A stretch of 64,000 bases of DNA from contig NZ_FSRT01000001.1 of assembly GCF_900143015.1 (NCBI RefSeq), positions 1,798,001 through 1,862,000 of the forward strand. Reading direction: 5' to 3'. Positions 40,605 to 48,126 of this stretch are shown here, in pieces. Source of the DNA: Fibrobacter sp. UWB11. Lineage in GTDB: Bacteria; Fibrobacterota; Fibrobacteria; Fibrobacterales; Fibrobacteraceae. The position numbers and the translations under genes are program-made. Below the pieces are notes generated by a model, which made no database searches, was not told the DNA's origin, and saw only the letters and a program-made list of their open reading frames with translations. How positions within the stretch are numbered: the first letter of the stretch is position 1; the number at the start of each line of letters is the position of its first letter.

Positions 40605-41600
40605 ATGGATAAACTCACATTACCTATTGCTACACTAATAAGTTGCAGTCTCCTTTTCGCAGAAGAGAGCGCCTCCGCAAAATCATCCGACGCTGCACAG
40701 GAAAAATCCCCTTGGGAGTTTTCAGCAACGACATCAGCGGCATATTACCCCGAAACAGAACACCACCGCGGAGCAACTCATTTTTCGGGCTTTAGCAGCC
40801 CTTACGATGGCGTTGAAGTCGTTGTAGAATTTGATGCTGCCTACTCGCTCCCCTTCTTGCGCGGAGACGACGAATTCACAGCGGACAATCATGTGACATT
40901 CAACATGGGGCTAGAAATTTCACCCGTCACAATTGCACCAATCGCCCAAATTACCGTATCGCCCATTGCTTTTTTGGAGCTTGCCATCGGTGGCACGGCA
41001 GGAACCGGCTGGAATACTTTTGGCTTATTCCAAGGAATGGCCAAATACAGCGCCATAGAACCTGAATATAAGGACTTGACGCCCTTTGCACACTGGTACT
41101 TGTACGGCTGGGCGAGTGCATGCCTTATGTTTGATTTGGCGGCCCTCTGGGAAGGCGACTGGCACCATGTCGTGGCTACAGCTACCTACAAGGCCGGGTA
41201 CCAGAAATTAACCGGCACCGAAGCCGACGTATGGATCTGGCGGACCACAGACGGCTTGGCTAGCGGCTGGGTGTACGAGCAGGAATACTTTGTCGGTTAC
41301 CAAATGCCTTTGAAACTTTCGATGATCGGCATCGGAGCAACGCTTTCCGGCCATTACAAATCGAGCGATTACGGTAATTATTCGTCAAACTACAAGGGCG
41401 ATTTCATGACGATTGACATTTGGTCCATGGCAGAAATCGCCCTCAACAAGAAAGACAAACTCTATGTGCTTTTAGATTTCGAATCCCGCAGAAGTTTCCG
41501 CGAAAAATACAAAGACATAGAGCACGAACCCCTCATGACCTACAGCGGCAGGGAATGGATTTTCTACATGTTAGGCATCCAGTGGAAGCATGTATTCTAG
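40605..41600 (+). CDS. Outer-membrane beta-barrel protein of the LolA-RND operon
   Basis: A 331-residue exported protein with a signal peptide ending LFAE (about 20). The mature sequence alternates aromatic and polar residues throughout, is rich in Trp, Tyr and Gly, and ends WIFYMLGIQWKHVF with the terminal Phe of barrel proteins. No named family is recognised. It follows the DUF1302-like gene by 65 bases with AGGAG before the ATG, so it is the fourth gene of the operon. Its stop codon and that of the convergent phosphatase gene share the palindrome CTAG (41597-41600). Confidence 0.7.
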   Translation: MDKLTLPIATLISCSLLFAEESASAKSSDAAQEKSPWEFSATTSAAYYPETEHHRGATHFSGFSSPYDGVEVVVEFDAAYSLPFLRGDDEFTADNHVTFNMGLEISPVTIAPIAQITVSPIAFLELAIGGTAGTGWNTFGLFQGMAKYSAIEPEYKDLTPFAHWYLYGWASACLMFDLAALWEGDWHHVVATATYKAGYQKLTGTEADVWIWRTTDGLASGWVYEQEYFVGYQMPLKLSMIGIGATLSGHYKSSDYGNYSSNYKGDFMTIDIWSMAEIALNKKDKLYVLLDFESRRSFREKYKDIEHEPLMTYSGREWIFYMLGIQWKHVF

Positions 41601-43057
41601 TCAACTCTGATAACCATCATCGTAAGGTCATCAAAAGGATCCGTTCCTTTAGCAAAAGCATTCACATCTTCGGCGATTTGCTTCAAGAAGCTTTCGCCGC
41701 CGCGCGTTTCGATGGCATTTAGCTTATCCAAAAGCCGTTTTTCGCCGTAAAGTTCAGCGGACGCATTGTGAGCCTCGGTAAGACCATCGGTATAGAGGAA
41801 AAGGCAATCCCCGCTTTCGAACTGGATTTCGGCTTCTTTATATTGCGTAGTGTCAAAGCCGGCAAGGAACACGCCATGCCGTTGCCTTAAGAATTCGAAC
41901 TTGCCATCTTTTTTGGCAAAGCACACGGCATTATGCCCTGCATTGGTGCATTTCATGATTTGGGTTTTAGTATCCAGAATGCCAATCCAGGCGGTCGCAA
42001 ACATTTCTTCGGCATTGTTTTCGCACAAGAGGCGGTTCACATCATTGAAGATTTCCGCCGTAGAAAGTTTCATGGATGCATGGTCACGAATCATCGTTTT
42101 CACAACCATCATGAAAAGAGCCGCAGGCACACCTTTTCCCGACACATCGGCAATCACAAAACAAATGTGCGTATCATCTATTTCAAAGAAGTCGTAAAAG
42201 TCACCGCCCACTTCTTTTGCTGTAGTCATTGATGCAGAAACACAGACCTCAGGGTGCGTCGGCAAGGCATTTTCTACCGCAGGAAGGGCTGCCAACTGGA
42301 TATTTGTTGCGACAGCCAAATCCGATTCTACGGCAGCAATTTTTTCACGATTTTTAACAAATCGATCCGTATTCACATACGTCGTAAAGAATACAAAGCC
42401 TATCGCCCAAGAAAGGCTTGTTATCAAATAATTTCCATCATTTCTAAAAATATAGGTCTGAAAAGCCTGGACACACACAGTCAATATAGCAAATATCAAC
42501 AGGTTTCTTGCATAAACCACTTTTTCTTTTTTCTTTTTACGATGCATTATCACATAATAAATTGCAAGTAAAATCGAAAATAACATATAAAGAAAATATA
42601 CAGGGACAAGAAAGAAGTCAAACAATTCCTTATACTGAATTGATCCGCCCTCATCAACGGAATACACTAAACCAGTCCAAGGCGTTGTGAGGCACAAAAG
42701 AAGAGTCAAAATAGTAGGTGTTACCAAAAATAAAGCATTCAATTTTTTAGGATTAAAATTCAATTCAAAACGTTCCAAGCTGAACAGCGTAAACATGGAT
42801 ACGGCAATCATCAAACAGACGCTGTAAACATCGGCACAAATATAGTTCAGCACTCGAAAATTCGCATTTCCATCTACATAGTGCCAAATCCATTCAAAAG
42901 TCGACAATACGATTGTCGACACAAGGACAACAGAGAGTTTATCTTTAATACTTATTTTATACAGAGCGATATTGTTATACAGCAAGAATAAAAGCAACAA
43001 TATTGAAAACAGGGACAATTCAGCAAAAATGGTTTCCGTAATGCCATATTGAATCAT
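41597..43057 (-). CDS. Membrane SpoIIE/PP2C-type serine phosphatase
   Basis: A 486-residue protein: about seven N-terminal membrane helices (residues about 5-225, resembling 7TM sensor modules), a short helical linker (KNREKIAAVESDLAVATNIQ) and a C-terminal SpoIIE-type PP2C phosphatase. The metal-binding and core motifs are intact: GGDFYDFF, DVSGKG, NAGHN, LYTDGLTEA and DPFDDLTMM. Such phosphatases remove phosphate from Ser/Thr of STAS anti-sigma antagonists in partner switching. The STAS gene lies two genes upstream in the same operon, and the ATG overlaps the MATE gene stop (ATGA). The membrane domain may sense a ligand or the state of the exporter. Confidence 0.9.
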   Translation of the reverse strand: MIQYGITETIFAELSLFSILLLLFLLYNNIALYKISIKDKLSVVLVSTIVLSTFEWIWHYVDGNANFRVLNYICADVYSVCLMIAVSMFTLFSLERFELNFNPKKLNALFLVTPTILTLLLCLTTPWTGLVYSVDEGGSIQYKELFDFFLVPVYFLYMLFSILLAIYYVIMHRKKKKEKVVYARNLLIFAILTVCVQAFQTYIFRNDGNYLITSLSWAIGFVFFTTYVNTDRFVKNREKIAAVESDLAVATNIQLAALPAVENALPTHPEVCVSASMTTAKEVGGDFYDFFEIDDTHICFVIADVSGKGVPAALFMMVVKTMIRDHASMKLSTAEIFNDVNRLLCENNAEEMFATAWIGILDTKTQIMKCTNAGHNAVCFAKKDGKFEFLRQRHGVFLAGFDTTQYKEAEIQFESGDCLFLYTDGLTEAHNASAELYGEKRLLDKLNAIETRGGESFLKQIAEDVNAFAKGTDPFDDLTMMVIRVD

Positions 43058-44784
43058 ACTCGCACCTCGTTGTTTACCTTGAATGTATTCCGGTTATAGC
43101 TCATGGTCGTCAAGTATTTTTTATTTTCCTTCAATTTTTCCATATAGCCCGAAACCATAAATTCAACAATTGACCCGGCGATGACATCGTCACTGGACAA
43201 ATCGAACAATATACCGTCATCCTTGGTTATAATCTGTACGCCCGTTTCGCGAATAATAACAGTACACTCTGCATAGACCGCTTTGTCGGCACCATTTTTT
43301 TCATAAATCAGCATATAAATGTCTTCTATCAATAACTTCACCTTTGAGACAATCTTACGGTCAACACCATTTTCACAAAGAAACTTTTCTGCCTGCTGCT
43401 GAGTTTTAACAATCGATGCCGGGTCCAATTTCAACTCGTAAAATTTATGCTTGAAGCCTTTCAGCTTATCCGCAAGCAGCAATGGATAATTCTCTGCTCC
43501 ATAACGAATGCGGATATACAGAACCGATATCACATAAGCCAACGCAGGGCTAACGGCGACACCGGCAAACATTCCATACACCCCAAAGAAATATCCCAAA
43601 ATCACACAAACCGGAGTCACCACAAGTACATCCCGGAGCGCACTCATCATAAATCCAAGTTTAATCTTGTCTATGAGCAAATAGTAAGAGCTCAACAGGT
43701 ATAGCAAGCTCAAGAATACAAGCCCCAAAACTTCAATTCGAGCACCACCTACCGCATAAAAATACATCGACGGATCAGAGATATCATAAAGTTTCACAAC
43801 ATAGGGCGCCAACAAAAGCAGCAACAGCGTCAACGCAAGACCTTCGGCTACAGCCGTGTTTCGAGAAAGACGATAACATTTTTTGACGGCATCATAGGAT
43901 TCTTCGCCCAAGTAGATGTTCATCAACGGAGTGAACGACTCCCCCACACCATCAAACAAGATTTGTATCTCTTTTATAAAAAGGACTATAGCACCAAGCA
44001 CCAGCATTTCAGGGCCGTAAGCGAAGGTTATAAAACGGTTCATCACCGCAATGAAACAAGCCAAAAAAAGATAGGAGCCCGCATCAACCGCGCTATATTT
44101 TACAACATCGACAAGCCACCTAAACGAGAAGTAAAAGCCAAGCTTTAGCGAATTGCCTTGACGAAGAAGATGTGCAAAAGAAACGAGTATCGCCGCAGCA
44201 GTTCCAATAAACGAGCCAAGTCCAATTCCCGCAATACCGATAAATTTTACAAGAACAATTGAGCAGACGATGTTCCCTACAATCTGCACGATTCCTGAAA
44301 CCATTGACAATGTTTCATCGCCATCGGCAAGGACCATCACATACATCAGAGTATAAAGCGGCAACAGTAAAAAAGTAAACTTGTACCAAAAGAAATAATC
44401 CTTTGCCGCACCGAAAACAATTGAAGACGGTTCATAAAAGCGAAGATAAGCATCCCCGATTACCATAAAGGTGACAAACAGAATTACTCCCATCAAGAGA
44501 GACATGAATAATCCAAACGCAAAACAACGATCGGCCTTTTTCTTGTCAAACTCTCCCATGGCCCGGTTATAAATAATGGGAACACCCAAGGCAACCAGAC
44601 ATCCCCAAAAACCAGCCAACGAATAAGCTGGGACAACTAGGCAAATGGCAGCAACGGCATCTTCACCGAGCATTACACCAGCAATCATCGAGTCTGAAAG
44701 GGTCAGCACCGTAATAACGAGTTGACCAATTGTACTCGATAGCAAGAGCGAAAAAAACTTTCTTGAAAGAAATGTCTTGAACAT
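43054..44784 (-). CDS. MATE-family exporter fused to an RsbW-like ATPase domain
   Basis: A 576-residue protein. Residues about 1-440 are a MATE/MOP-type transporter with about 12 helices. About 450-576 is a soluble domain resembling the HATPase_c_2 (RsbW/SpoIIAB) fold: KVKLLIEDIYMLIYEKNG at the N-box position and IITKDDGILFDL at the DxGxG position. Both motifs look degraded: the Asn of ExxxN is Met, and the second Gly is missing. The domain may bind the STAS partner without strong kinase activity. The gene starts 8 bases after the STAS gene and overlaps the phosphatase start. Export of the synthetase product is the obvious inference. Confidence 0.82.
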   Translation of the reverse strand: MFKTFLSRKFFSLLLSSTIGQLVITVLTLSDSMIAGVMLGEDAVAAICLVVPAYSLAGFWGCLVALGVPIIYNRAMGEFDKKKADRCFAFGLFMSLLMGVILFVTFMVIGDAYLRFYEPSSIVFGAAKDYFFWYKFTFLLLPLYTLMYVMVLADGDETLSMVSGIVQIVGNIVCSIVLVKFIGIAGIGLGSFIGTAAAILVSFAHLLRQGNSLKLGFYFSFRWLVDVVKYSAVDAGSYLFLACFIAVMNRFITFAYGPEMLVLGAIVLFIKEIQILFDGVGESFTPLMNIYLGEESYDAVKKCYRLSRNTAVAEGLALTLLLLLLAPYVVKLYDISDPSMYFYAVGGARIEVLGLVFLSLLYLLSSYYLLIDKIKLGFMMSALRDVLVVTPVCVILGYFFGVYGMFAGVAVSPALAYVISVLYIRIRYGAENYPLLLADKLKGFKHKFYELKLDPASIVKTQQQAEKFLCENGVDRKIVSKVKLLIEDIYMLIYEKNGADKAVYAECTVIIRETGVQIITKDDGILFDLSSDDVIAGSIVEFMVSGYMEKLKENKKYLTTMSYNRNTFKVNNEVRV

Positions 44785-44792
44785 TGCTTCTG

Positions 44793-45092
44793 TTACAAAA
44801 TTCCAAACGCCACATCTAGCCCGGTCGCTTCGAGAACGTCCTTAAAATTCGGGCCCACATTTTCTAGTCGCATATTGCCCTGATTCTTTTTCAAAGTCTT
44901 GAAAGAAGAAAGCAACACGCGGATTCCTGCCGACGAAACAAAGTCGCACTCCTTGAAATCAAAAACAAGGGACTTTATCTTTTCGAGATGCGGAGCAAGG
45001 TATGTCGAAAGCTCTGGAGCCGTCACCGCATTCAACTCCCCCGAAAGTTCTACTTTCAATTCATCGCCATTTAAGTTTGACCTGATTTCCAT
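44793..45092 (-). CDS. STAS-domain anti-sigma factor antagonist-like protein
   Basis: A 99-residue single STAS domain, the size of SpoIIAA or RsbV. LSGELNAVTAPEL (about 16-28) and the phosphorylation loop DFVSSAGIRVLLSS (about 50-63) are typical; one of the two Ser in VSSAG is the expected phosphate acceptor. Such proteins switch partners: unphosphorylated they bind an RsbW-type domain, phosphorylated they release it. The partner domain and a matching PP2C phosphatase are encoded by the next two genes. The ATG overlaps the stop of the synthetase gene (TAATG). No sigma factor is nearby, so the output may not be transcriptional. Confidence 0.9.
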   Translation of the reverse strand: MEIRSNLNGDELKVELSGELNAVTAPELSTYLAPHLEKIKSLVFDFKECDFVSSAGIRVLLSSFKTLKKNQGNMRLENVGPNFKDVLEATGLDVAFGIL

Positions 45093-48088
45093 TACATCTC
45101 CTTCAGTAGTTTTTCACAATTTTGAACGAATATCTCGGCAAATTTTTCCATGCTTTCTGGTTTATACAACGCTCCGTTGTAGTCAAAAAGAGCCTCGAAT
45201 TCTTCAGGACTGTCAATAATTTCTAAATCCAGAGGACTTTCGCAGGCTGTAGGATACTTATCCGAAAAGATTCCCTCCACACCACTTATAATTTCATCTA
45301 TAACACGATAATCATAAACATCGTTTTGGAATATGACCGTTGCAGCCCCGTTTTTTCGCATAAACCATTCGTCCAAGCAATACGAAAGGCTCGCATGATT
45401 TATCCCTTCTTCAATCTGTTTTTGTGCATTTTCCAAATACACGCGAGGGCTTTTTTCTTTTTCCATCGAAAAAGCAATAGGAATCTCGCGAATAAAAACA
45501 CCTACCGAATTCATGGATTCTACATCGTTCCTGCCGTTCCAAACCCAACCGAACCGGACTAATTTGGAATTGTTGTACTGGCAAACCGACAACGCAAAAG
45601 CGGCACAATAAAACGCATTCTCTCCTATTTTTATTTTTTCGCAGAATTCTTTCACTTCATTTTTTGAGAACGGAAAGGGCTTTGTGACTTGACCATCTAC
45701 ATTTTCTTTCAAATCAAAATCAACCCTTGGAATGGCGTCATAATTCTCTTTTCTATAGCGGGATATAAAGAATTCCCTATCTTCTTCAAATGTCATTGAG
45801 TTTCTTAGTTCGTAATCCTTTTGAAGAAGCGGATAAAAATAATCCTTGGAGGGTTCATCTCCATGGTAAACACGGGAGAGATCTTTCAAAAAATGCTGTA
45901 ACGAAAGACCATCACAAACAGTATGATAAACACATAAAAGAAGAAATTTTTCGTTTTTTGAACGGACAAGGCGACATCTGAAAAGTGGAGAGCCGTCTAA
46001 ATTGAACGGGCGGGAAATTTCTTCTTCGGCAATCTTCAGTTCTGAGGCATTCATTTCCTCAACAGGAATTTCGTGGGAATTGTCTGCGGGTTTTCGAATA
46101 TAAAACTCGGGTCCCCGTTTTTCAATGACACTGGACAAAACAGGACGGGCCGCAATTTCCTTTGAAAGGGCAGCAGAAAACTTATCCAAATCAATTTCGT
46201 CCGATAGTTTAAACTTATAGGCAAGATTCAACATTGTTGTTCCTGGCTGCTTGAAATCAAGATTCAGGAAATTCAGTTGCATCTCGTTTACAGGAACGCC
46301 CTTTCTTTCAAGCACACCACTCAAAAAAGCAGGACCTTTTTGAAAATGATTTTCTGCTTTTTGCCTTTGAACAAGTTCTGCAATTTTACGCGGAGTTCGT
46401 CCGCCATAGACAAACTTAAAAGAAAATGATTCTATAACATTGCGGCTTTCTGAAACAAGTTCCATTGCGCATATAGAATCTCCGCCTAAAAAGAAAAAGT
46501 CGTCATCGATTCCTATTTTGCGGTCTACATCAAGGACTTTCTCAAAAAGGTCGCATATTTTTTTCTGCAATTCATTTTCCGGTACAACGTAGCACAAGTC
46601 TTCAAGATTATCCGGTTCTTTTAGGGCTAGCTTGTCCACCTTGCCATTCGCATTGAAAGGAATTTCATCCAGCTTGACAAAAAACGAGGGAATCATAAAT
46701 ATCGGAAGGTAAGATTCCAATTTTTTAGCGGCTTCGGCAACATCTATTTCTTTTTCATCTTTATAATAAAGTCCGAGCCTTACTAAGCCGTTTTTTGCAA
46801 AAGCCTTTACAACGCAGAATTCAAGCGACAATGCCGATTTTGCGGCTGATTCAATCTCGGAAGGATCAACTCGGTTCCCGTTGATTTTCACCATATTGTC
46901 GATGCGACCTAGAATGGTGTATTTTCCGTCAGAGTCTTTTTTGGCGTAATCGGATGTTTTAAAATAATTTTTTCCATTATGCAAAATGAACTGGTCTTTT
47001 TCGTAATCCTTATTGTACCTTCTGAAAAACGGAAGCGCAATACAGAAAACACCCTCGTCCGCTTCGTTTCCATCTTCGTCAATCAAGACAATATCTGAAT
47101 TGCAGGTGGCATAGCCAATGGGCGTATTGCGGTAGCTTTTATCCAGCGTAAAAAGGCATGAGGTATAACCAAATTCACTCGAGCCGTAAATATTGACTAT
47201 ATCAAACTCAGGAGAATAAATATCAGAAACAATTTCACCGCCTGTAAAACCCGCCCTAAGCGTAAAGCTAGGCATTTTCAGCATCGCCCTTAAGAAATGC
47301 GGAGTCATAAAAGTCGTGTCAATTCCGTTTATTGCAAAATACCGAGCAAGGTCTTTTATATCCCTAAGAAAATTAAAAGACAGAACATGGACTGTATTTC
47401 CGACAAACAATTCACCCATGGTAATATAGACGCCGCCCACATAACTTTCAGGAATCACATGCGCAAACCGGGATGGCGGATTGGAATAAGGTTCCATGAA
47501 CCCACAGCATCCTTCAATCAAATTTTTATAAATTCCGTATTCCTGAGCCAAGCCCTTGGGGGTTCCCGTACTGCCCGAGGTGTAAATGTAAAAGGCAAGA
47601 TCATGAGGCTTAGCTGTTTTTATTTCGGCACAGGGAACCTCCTTCATCGCCTCGTCCCAGCATTGCATGGTGAATTCGAGTTTGCAGTTGCAGTCTTTCT
47701 TGACAAAGGCAATACGCTCTGGCCCCATCATATCTTCTAGCGAGACCCAGGCAGCCCCCGCCATAATGACTCCCACACGAATAGCCATGTATTCCATTCC
47801 GCGCGGGACATGAATTGCAACCGTATCTTCACTCCCAATCCCTTTTTTACGAAGGTAGGCGTTCACCTTCTTGCTGTTTTCATAGAATTGCCGATATGTC
47901 GTATTCCGTTCGCCGTCATGGTCGACAACGGCAATTCGTTCAGAAAAGAGGTCTAACTTATCAAAATAAGCGGAAAGACTTTTTATTTCTTTTTGTTCTG
48001 AAAACAACTTTTTCACCTTCTTACGGAAAACAATCCCAACTTCAAATATAATCCATAACATTACAAAAAATAAAAAAGCAACTCCCAT
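45092..48088 (-). CDS. A-T-C nonribosomal-peptide-synthetase-like enzyme
   Basis: A 998-residue single-module synthetase. After a hydrophobic N-terminal segment (about 1-20) comes an adenylation domain (about 35-515: YTSGSTGTPKG near 166, IYGSSEFGY, YFKTSDYA, GRIDNMVKINGNRVDP, Lys of NANGKVDK). A carrier domain follows with LGGDS (phosphopantetheine Ser near 537), then a condensation domain (about 610-998; active-site YHTVCDG instead of HHxxxDG, keeping the catalytic His). There is no thioesterase, so the C domain may transfer the bound acyl group to an acceptor. It heads an operon with STAS, MATE and PP2C genes. Start uncertain: this ATG sits in the loop of the ftsK terminator hairpin; ATG at 48061 is an alternative. 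Confidence 0.85.
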   Translation of the reverse strand: MGVAFLFFVMLWIIFEVGIVFRKKVKKLFSEQKEIKSLSAYFDKLDLFSERIAVVDHDGERNTTYRQFYENSKKVNAYLRKKGIGSEDTVAIHVPRGMEYMAIRVGVIMAGAAWVSLEDMMGPERIAFVKKDCNCKLEFTMQCWDEAMKEVPCAEIKTAKPHDLAFYIYTSGSTGTPKGLAQEYGIYKNLIEGCCGFMEPYSNPPSRFAHVIPESYVGGVYITMGELFVGNTVHVLSFNFLRDIKDLARYFAINGIDTTFMTPHFLRAMLKMPSFTLRAGFTGGEIVSDIYSPEFDIVNIYGSSEFGYTSCLFTLDKSYRNTPIGYATCNSDIVLIDEDGNEADEGVFCIALPFFRRYNKDYEKDQFILHNGKNYFKTSDYAKKDSDGKYTILGRIDNMVKINGNRVDPSEIESAAKSALSLEFCVVKAFAKNGLVRLGLYYKDEKEIDVAEAAKKLESYLPIFMIPSFFVKLDEIPFNANGKVDKLALKEPDNLEDLCYVVPENELQKKICDLFEKVLDVDRKIGIDDDFFFLGGDSICAMELVSESRNVIESFSFKFVYGGRTPRKIAELVQRQKAENHFQKGPAFLSGVLERKGVPVNEMQLNFLNLDFKQPGTTMLNLAYKFKLSDEIDLDKFSAALSKEIAARPVLSSVIEKRGPEFYIRKPADNSHEIPVEEMNASELKIAEEEISRPFNLDGSPLFRCRLVRSKNEKFLLLCVYHTVCDGLSLQHFLKDLSRVYHGDEPSKDYFYPLLQKDYELRNSMTFEEDREFFISRYRKENYDAIPRVDFDLKENVDGQVTKPFPFSKNEVKEFCEKIKIGENAFYCAAFALSVCQYNNSKLVRFGWVWNGRNDVESMNSVGVFIREIPIAFSMEKEKSPRVYLENAQKQIEEGINHASLSYCLDEWFMRKNGAATVIFQNDVYDYRVIDEIISGVEGIFSDKYPTACESPLDLEIIDSPEEFEALFDYNGALYKPESMEKFAEIFVQNCEKLLKEM

Positions 48089-48096
48089 AGAGTTGC
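48072..48096 (-). terminator. Terminator after ftsK, overlapping the synthetase gene start
   Basis: On the minus strand GCAACTC (48096-48090), loop TATGG, GAGTTGC (48084-48078) and six T (48077-48072). On the plus strand it also ends in TTTTT. It is 31 bases after the ftsK stop. The loop holds the first possible ATG of the downstream synthetase gene. Confidence 0.8.
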
Positions 48097-48126
48097 TTTT
48101 TCATTTAAAACAATTTTCAGGGAAGC

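Follow-up and report, generated by a model that had tools for sequence, protein, structure and literature searches.

What does a partner switch control when no sigma factor accompanies it? The question is raised by four minus-strand open reading frames (ORFs) at 41597-48088 of a 64,000-nt stretch of DNA from Fibrobacter sp. UWB11 (the window; positions count from its first letter), which encode an adenylation-carrier-condensation (A-T-C) enzyme, a STAS protein, a MATE transporter with a C-terminal tail and a SpoIIE-type phosphatase. The A-T-C and STAS genes are joined by a TAATG overlap, the STAS and MATE genes are separated by TAA, 8 bases and ATG, and the MATE and phosphatase genes share an ATGA overlap. 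All Pfam matches were above cut-off: AMP-binding, PP-binding and Condensation (P0001), STAS (P0002), MatE (P0003) and SpoIIE (P0004). The places, junctions and families given in a preliminary description of this DNA were all recovered, the families by Pfam and NCBIfam models; as had also been said there, no sigma factor was found among the proteins encoded by the four genes (ORF list and Pfam).

In partner switching, RsbW phosphorylates a STAS protein, a phosphatase reverses this, and the unphosphorylated STAS protein binds an RsbW-fold domain. We consider it rather probable that the locus is a partner-switch module with the transporter as its output, in which the tail of the MATE protein is a kinase-dead docking domain for STAS and RsbW is encoded separately. 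Its fuller form, in which the transporter is the direct output, STAS binds the RsbW-fold pseudokinase tail, and phosphatase and separate kinase gate export of the non-ribosomal peptide synthetase (NRPS)-type product post-translationally without a sigma factor, is one for which belief and doubt are evenly balanced. The observed basis consists of gene content and order, conservation, folds, catalytic motifs that are intact or lost, and the presence of a separate kinase. In the proposed sequence of events, the A-T-C enzyme would couple an amine to a carboxylic acid that it has activated and that probably lacks an alpha-amino group, and the MATE protein would export the product. A separate canonical RsbW, encoded in cis in Spirochaetia and others and about 70 kb off here, would phosphorylate STAS; the seven-transmembrane (7-TM) SpoIIE-type phosphatase would dephosphorylate STAS on sensing an outside signal; and unphosphorylated STAS would dock on the kinase-dead tail and change the transport state, in whichever direction. 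Such a scheme suggests a transcription switch rewired for direct control of export. The phosphorylatable STAS protein of the preliminary description is consistent with the SSAG-type motif in 29 of 29 STAS proteins and a match to TIGR00377 above its cut-off, and the catalytic motifs reported for the phosphatase were found again, the PP2C metal-binding motifs being intact in the window protein and conserved across the family.

The argument turns on the tail. The full MATE protein was modelled with AlphaFold2 (AF2) at a predicted local distance difference test (pLDDT) score of 87.6, and the best PDB match of its residues 1-442 was a MATE transporter (Z 36.0 over 427 residues); Pfam MatE matched in two stretches, and the fold has 12 helices. 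The match to MATE chains in the PDB is confined to residues 1-442, the RsbW-fold tail being additional. Modelled alone (pLDDT 80.7, predicted template modelling score 0.76), the tail had as its ten best PDB matches exclusively anti-sigma factors of the RsbW/SpoIIAB/UsfX kind (Z 13.3-11.7; histidine kinases 6.6), and several of the top matches were solved with a STAS partner (8ih8, 6m37 and 1th8; Z 13.3-13.2, root-mean-square deviation 2.4-2.7, 111-125 residues). By hhalign, the tail profile matched the profile of stand-alone RsbW proteins at 94.3% (E 1.1e-7). Pfam did not recognise the tail in the window MATE protein, HATPase_c_2 matched weakly in 7 of 23 aligned tails (best 0.0041), and PDB sequences searched with a tail profile yielded chance-level matches only; the relation to RsbW is visible only via profile-profile comparison or structure. 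The RsbW likeness noted earlier is borne out by both routes, and the predicted structure gives the tail the RsbW/SpoIIAB fold. Among 168 Fibrobacterota genomes sampled, every full-length tail match lay inside a frame of MATE length (570-613 aa), the one further copy, in genome G051, being a fragment. An Asn-Arg pair (N564-R565, in a TxSYNR-like motif at 43090-43095, minus strand) is invariant in the aligned tails.

Among 101 relatives searched, the MATE protein with its tail was found in 25 genomes of the genus, with more distant or broken copies besides. A profile scan of genome contigs with a 6-row MATE alignment yielded 38 loci (numbered with L) from Fibrobacter, gut Treponema/Spirochaetia, Clostridia (including Oscillospiraceae), relatives of Selenomonas and Desulfobulbus; viral contigs scanned with the MATE protein held no relative. 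The MATE proteins were clustered at 70% identity into 26 clusters, and partners were mapped with purpose-built profiles within a limit of 5 kb. At least one partner was present in 18 of the 26 clusters (STAS in 12, phosphatase in 12, an A-T-C or condensation gene in 11, canonical RsbW in 7), and 14 had STAS, phosphatase or RsbW. Chance neighbours of this kind would be rare because the 3.76-Mb window genome holds few SpoIIE and STAS matches (4 and 5, respectively), and the chance of a SpoIIE gene within 5 kb is roughly estimated at about 1% per gene. Judged by this comparison, the linkage, which recurs across genera and phyla, is not due to chance. The co-occurrence check set out in the preliminary description thus came out in favour of genes kept together, but not of a constant order: in L050 the A-T-C gene runs divergently, L046-L049 have STAS upstream, and L057, L058 and L094 carry a fusion of phosphatase and RsbW. 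The genes could also be carried jointly as a mobile cluster of gut bacteria, without direct contact, the target of the switch being unlinked. A patchy presence in the genus and copies 50-81% identical in gut Treponema/Spirochaetia and Clostridia fit this, but an RsbW-fold domain fused to the transporter implies a likely physical link to STAS, and we regard mere co-travel as most improbable. An anti-phage defence system was considered as well and found unsupported, none of the four proteins matching PADLOC-DB models.

If the tail has the fold of a kinase, does it also act as one? In a motif comparison of 52 distinct MATE tails with 11 RsbW proteins from the surveyed loci, that of the window genome included, the catalytic Glu, the N-box Asn and the DxG motif were invariant in all RsbW proteins, and their ATP lid read GGLG in ten and GKLG in one. 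The Gly-rich lid occurs in none of the 52 tails, and only three distant ones (L061-L063) keep the N-box Asn, the other 49 having lost it. In the window tail, D488 stands at the position of the RsbW Glu and L492 at that of the Mg-binding Asn. Since both the N-box Asn and the Gly-rich lid are lost, the tail is probably a pseudokinase. The proposal that the tail is an active STAS kinase, which would make the transporter both kinase and target, is quite unlikely: it is favoured by the RsbW fold, by the N-box acid and DxG motif that most tails keep and by the Asn of L061-L063, but the Mg-ATP residues are degenerate in the tail and intact in stand-alone, canonical RsbW proteins encoded in cis or in the same genome. 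The three distant proteins with the N-box Asn (L061:7937-9709, L062:8191-10002 and L063:8106-9902; a separate RsbW lies close by in L061 and L062) may carry the tail in an earlier form that is still active.

The separate RsbW is a fifth component of the module, absent from the gene list of the preliminary description. In the Spirochaetia loci L080 and L082 it is part of a five-gene operon, A-T-C/STAS/MATE-tail/PP2C/RsbW, which is the window order plus the kinase. The canonical RsbW of the window genome (C1:1913208-1913573) adjoins a second STAS gene (pair at G000 C1:1912867-1913573; L141:6874-7664), no sigma factor was recognised among the neighbours of this pair, and it is the likely kinase source for the module. 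The genus was represented by 61 genomes, with an RsbW domain cut-off of E < 1e-10 and some domains being parts of longer frames. Canonical RsbW was present in 25 of the 25 genomes with the MATE-tail versus 14 of the 31 without it (Fisher p = 3.4e-6, uncorrected for kinship). Five genomes with distant or broken MATE-tail copies were set aside from this test, and all five carry RsbW, as do six genomes behind the Treponema/Spirochaetia loci. It is also conceivable, though unlikely, that the tail binds the RsbW kinase in a heterodimer rather than STAS, the transporter titrating the kinase or anchoring it at the membrane. RsbW proteins dimerise, and M. smegmatis RsbW3 acts via binding of RsbW1 (PMC7693655), but there are loci with STAS and no RsbW in cis (the window clade and the clusters of L074 and L095).

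The preliminary description had left it open whether the switch acts on export or on synthesis. A comparison of the window clade with L041-L044 shows an exchanged A-T-C enzyme (40% identity in the adenylation (A) and 30% in the condensation (C) domain), whereas STAS is 92-94% and MATE 81-85% identical. This pattern points to the transporter rather than the A-T-C enzyme as the partner of STAS. Control of synthesis, with the A-T-C enzyme as the target of STAS and the MATE tail a mere scaffold, seems very unlikely. The two genes do adjoin each other in the window, but STAS is nearly constant across the exchange, and seven clusters have STAS or RsbW and no A-T-C gene within 5 kb (some contigs are short). 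A switch on export is the most economical form of the earlier proposal, and a switch on synthesis the weaker one.

Several points weigh against an exporter gated by docked STAS. In 8 of the 26 clusters no partner of any of the four types was mapped within 5 kb, and some clusters have the A-T-C gene only. The N-box acid is retained in the tails (Glu in 41 and Asp in 11 of 52), the DxG motif mostly so, and room is left for nucleotide binding or weak activity of the tail. Finally, the RsbW of the window genome adjoins a STAS gene of its own and may serve another pathway.

In comparison with described systems, it is well supported that the parts of the module are known and that its output would be new. 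A SpoIIE-type phosphatase, a stand-alone STAS protein with a conserved Ser and an RsbW-fold domain are shared with the Bacillus RsbU-RsbV-RsbW and SpoIIE-SpoIIAA-SpoIIAB switches; unlike these, the operon here has no sigma factor, the RsbW-fold domain is fused to MATE and has lost its ATP-site motifs, and the kinase is separate. The 12-helix MATE fold is that of PfMATE and of ClbM from the colibactin system, which exports an assembly-line product; the RsbW-fold tail of the window protein is extra. SulP/SLC26 transporters with a STAS domain also carry a partner-switch-type domain, but with the STAS half fused; the window module has a free STAS protein and a fused RsbW half, and the transporter families are unrelated. 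In the M. smegmatis SigF switch, RsbW1 is an anti-sigma factor without kinase activity and RsbW2 is the kinase for the STAS protein RsfB (PMC7693655). The same split between a non-kinase RsbW homologue and a separate kinase is predicted here from sequence; however, RsbW1 sequesters a sigma factor, and the corresponding domain here belongs to an exporter. In Bordetella (BtrU/BtrV/BtrW) and Vibrio fischeri (SypA/SypE), partner-switch parts likewise serve beyond plain sigma-factor control, the Btr proteins acting on type III secretion (PMC8256260), but these systems have another output and no described transporter with a fused RsbW-fold domain. Non-sigma or unknown outputs are on record for further partner switches, including several non-canonical ones whose target is unknown (SypA, RbaV and HmpV; PMC8256260). 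In agreement with the preliminary description, which knew of no system of this make-up, no published MATE-RsbW fusion, RsbW-fold domain on a transporter, or gene set of this kind was found in the open-licence literature. If the reading of an export switch is true, the target-like domain on the transporter is a directly testable, non-transcriptional partner-switch output, and the system connects an uncharacterised gut-bacterial small-molecule family with an exporter of its own and a sensor in the membrane.

The features of the operon are listed in Table 1. The ATG at 48088 falls within the terminator of the ftsK-like gene upstream, in the hairpin loop, and A-T-C homologues start about 25-35 residues downstream of it. 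Therefore, the true start of the A-T-C gene is probably near 48007, a TTG after AAGGTG being the best guess; the span to 48088 given earlier holds for the open frame, but probably not for the start codon.

Table 1 Features of the operon and its upstream flank, in window positions unless residues are given
Feature	Position	Strand	Evidence
Terminator-like hairpin of upstream ftsK-like gene	48068..48106	-	18-pair stem + T-run
A-T-C enzyme gene (probable start)	45092..48007	-	ORF open from 48088; Pfam AMP-binding 3e-42, PP-binding 7e-7, Condensation 1e-29
A domain of A-T-C	~46616-47947	-	Pfam AMP-binding
Carrier domain of A-T-C	~46370-46561	-	Pfam PP-binding
Condensation domain of A-T-C	~45101-46300	-	Pfam Condensation
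Stand-alone STAS, 99 aa, anti-sigma-factor-antagonist type	44793..45092	-	TIGR00377 above cut-off (NCBIfam); Pfam STAS
Ser53-Ser54 codons, SSAG motif, predicted phosphorylation site	44931..44936	-	SS and G shared by all 29 STAS proteins compared
MATE transporter with C-terminal tail, 576 aa	43054..44784	-	Pfam MatE; predicted structure; PDB match
Transporter part of MATE protein, residues 1-442	43459-44784	-	AF2 model and PDB comparison
MATE tail domain, RsbW/SpoIIAB fold, residues 446-571; predicted to dock STAS and to lack kinase activity	43072..43449	-	AF2, PDB, hhalign
Degenerate N-box of tail, E487-D-I-Y-M-L492	43309..43326	-	Alignment of 52 tails with 11 RsbW
Membrane serine phosphatase gene	41597..43057	-	Pfam SpoIIE 1.2e-48
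Phosphatase membrane part, ~7 hydrophobic segments (7-TM)	residues 1-235	-	Hydrophobic segments
SpoIIE-type PP2C domain, residues 294-485	41603-42178	-	Pfam SpoIIE 1.2e-48

The A-T-C enzyme carries the motifs of an NRPS module, namely an A domain, a carrier GGDS and a condensation HxxxDG; in the full HHxxxDG motif the first His is replaced by Tyr and the catalytic second His is present. Its A domain aligns with linear gramicidin synthetase, and Val188 stands at the place of an LgrA Asp (GrsA position 235, assigned by alignment only). Asp at this position of A domains holds the alpha-amino group. Since Val188 replaces it, the substrate is likely an acid without an alpha-amino group, and since the chain terminates in a condensation domain and has no release domain, a free amine is a plausible acceptor. 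Co-variation of the sensor half of the phosphatase with the A-T-C enzyme was considered and dropped, the A domains of L042 and L044 being 99% and the sensor halves only 68% identical.

In four loci the A-T-C gene is immediately, or almost immediately, preceded by a conserved gene of about 375-381 aa (L046:3127-4260, L073:1419-2546, L077:5909-7048 and L080:5533-6678), which has no Pfam match and is weakly like histidinol-phosphate aminotransferase (E 0.0028). A search for this gene in the window genome, made with no positive control, gave no match. Close to the A-T-C operon of Spirochaetia there is also a gene like carboxynorspermidine decarboxylase (L080:4392-5552, L077:3289-4431), the nspC model match in L080 being below its cut-off; a polyamine might be the amine acceptor, given this neighbouring gene. 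The locus L073, on a contig filed as Treponema, has two STAS genes, and its MATE-tail and STAS proteins are 81% and 94% identical to those of the window, a likeness due either to recent transfer or to a binning error. In G051 the MATE-tail gene is present as a fragment only (G051:C17:256930-257187; L066:9919-10239), from which the system seems to have been lost in some strains. In three loci a second, tail-less MATE gene directly adjoins the MATE-tail gene (L083:4001-5323, L085:1348-2670 and L054:6710-8095), and there a transporter pair could be under one switch.

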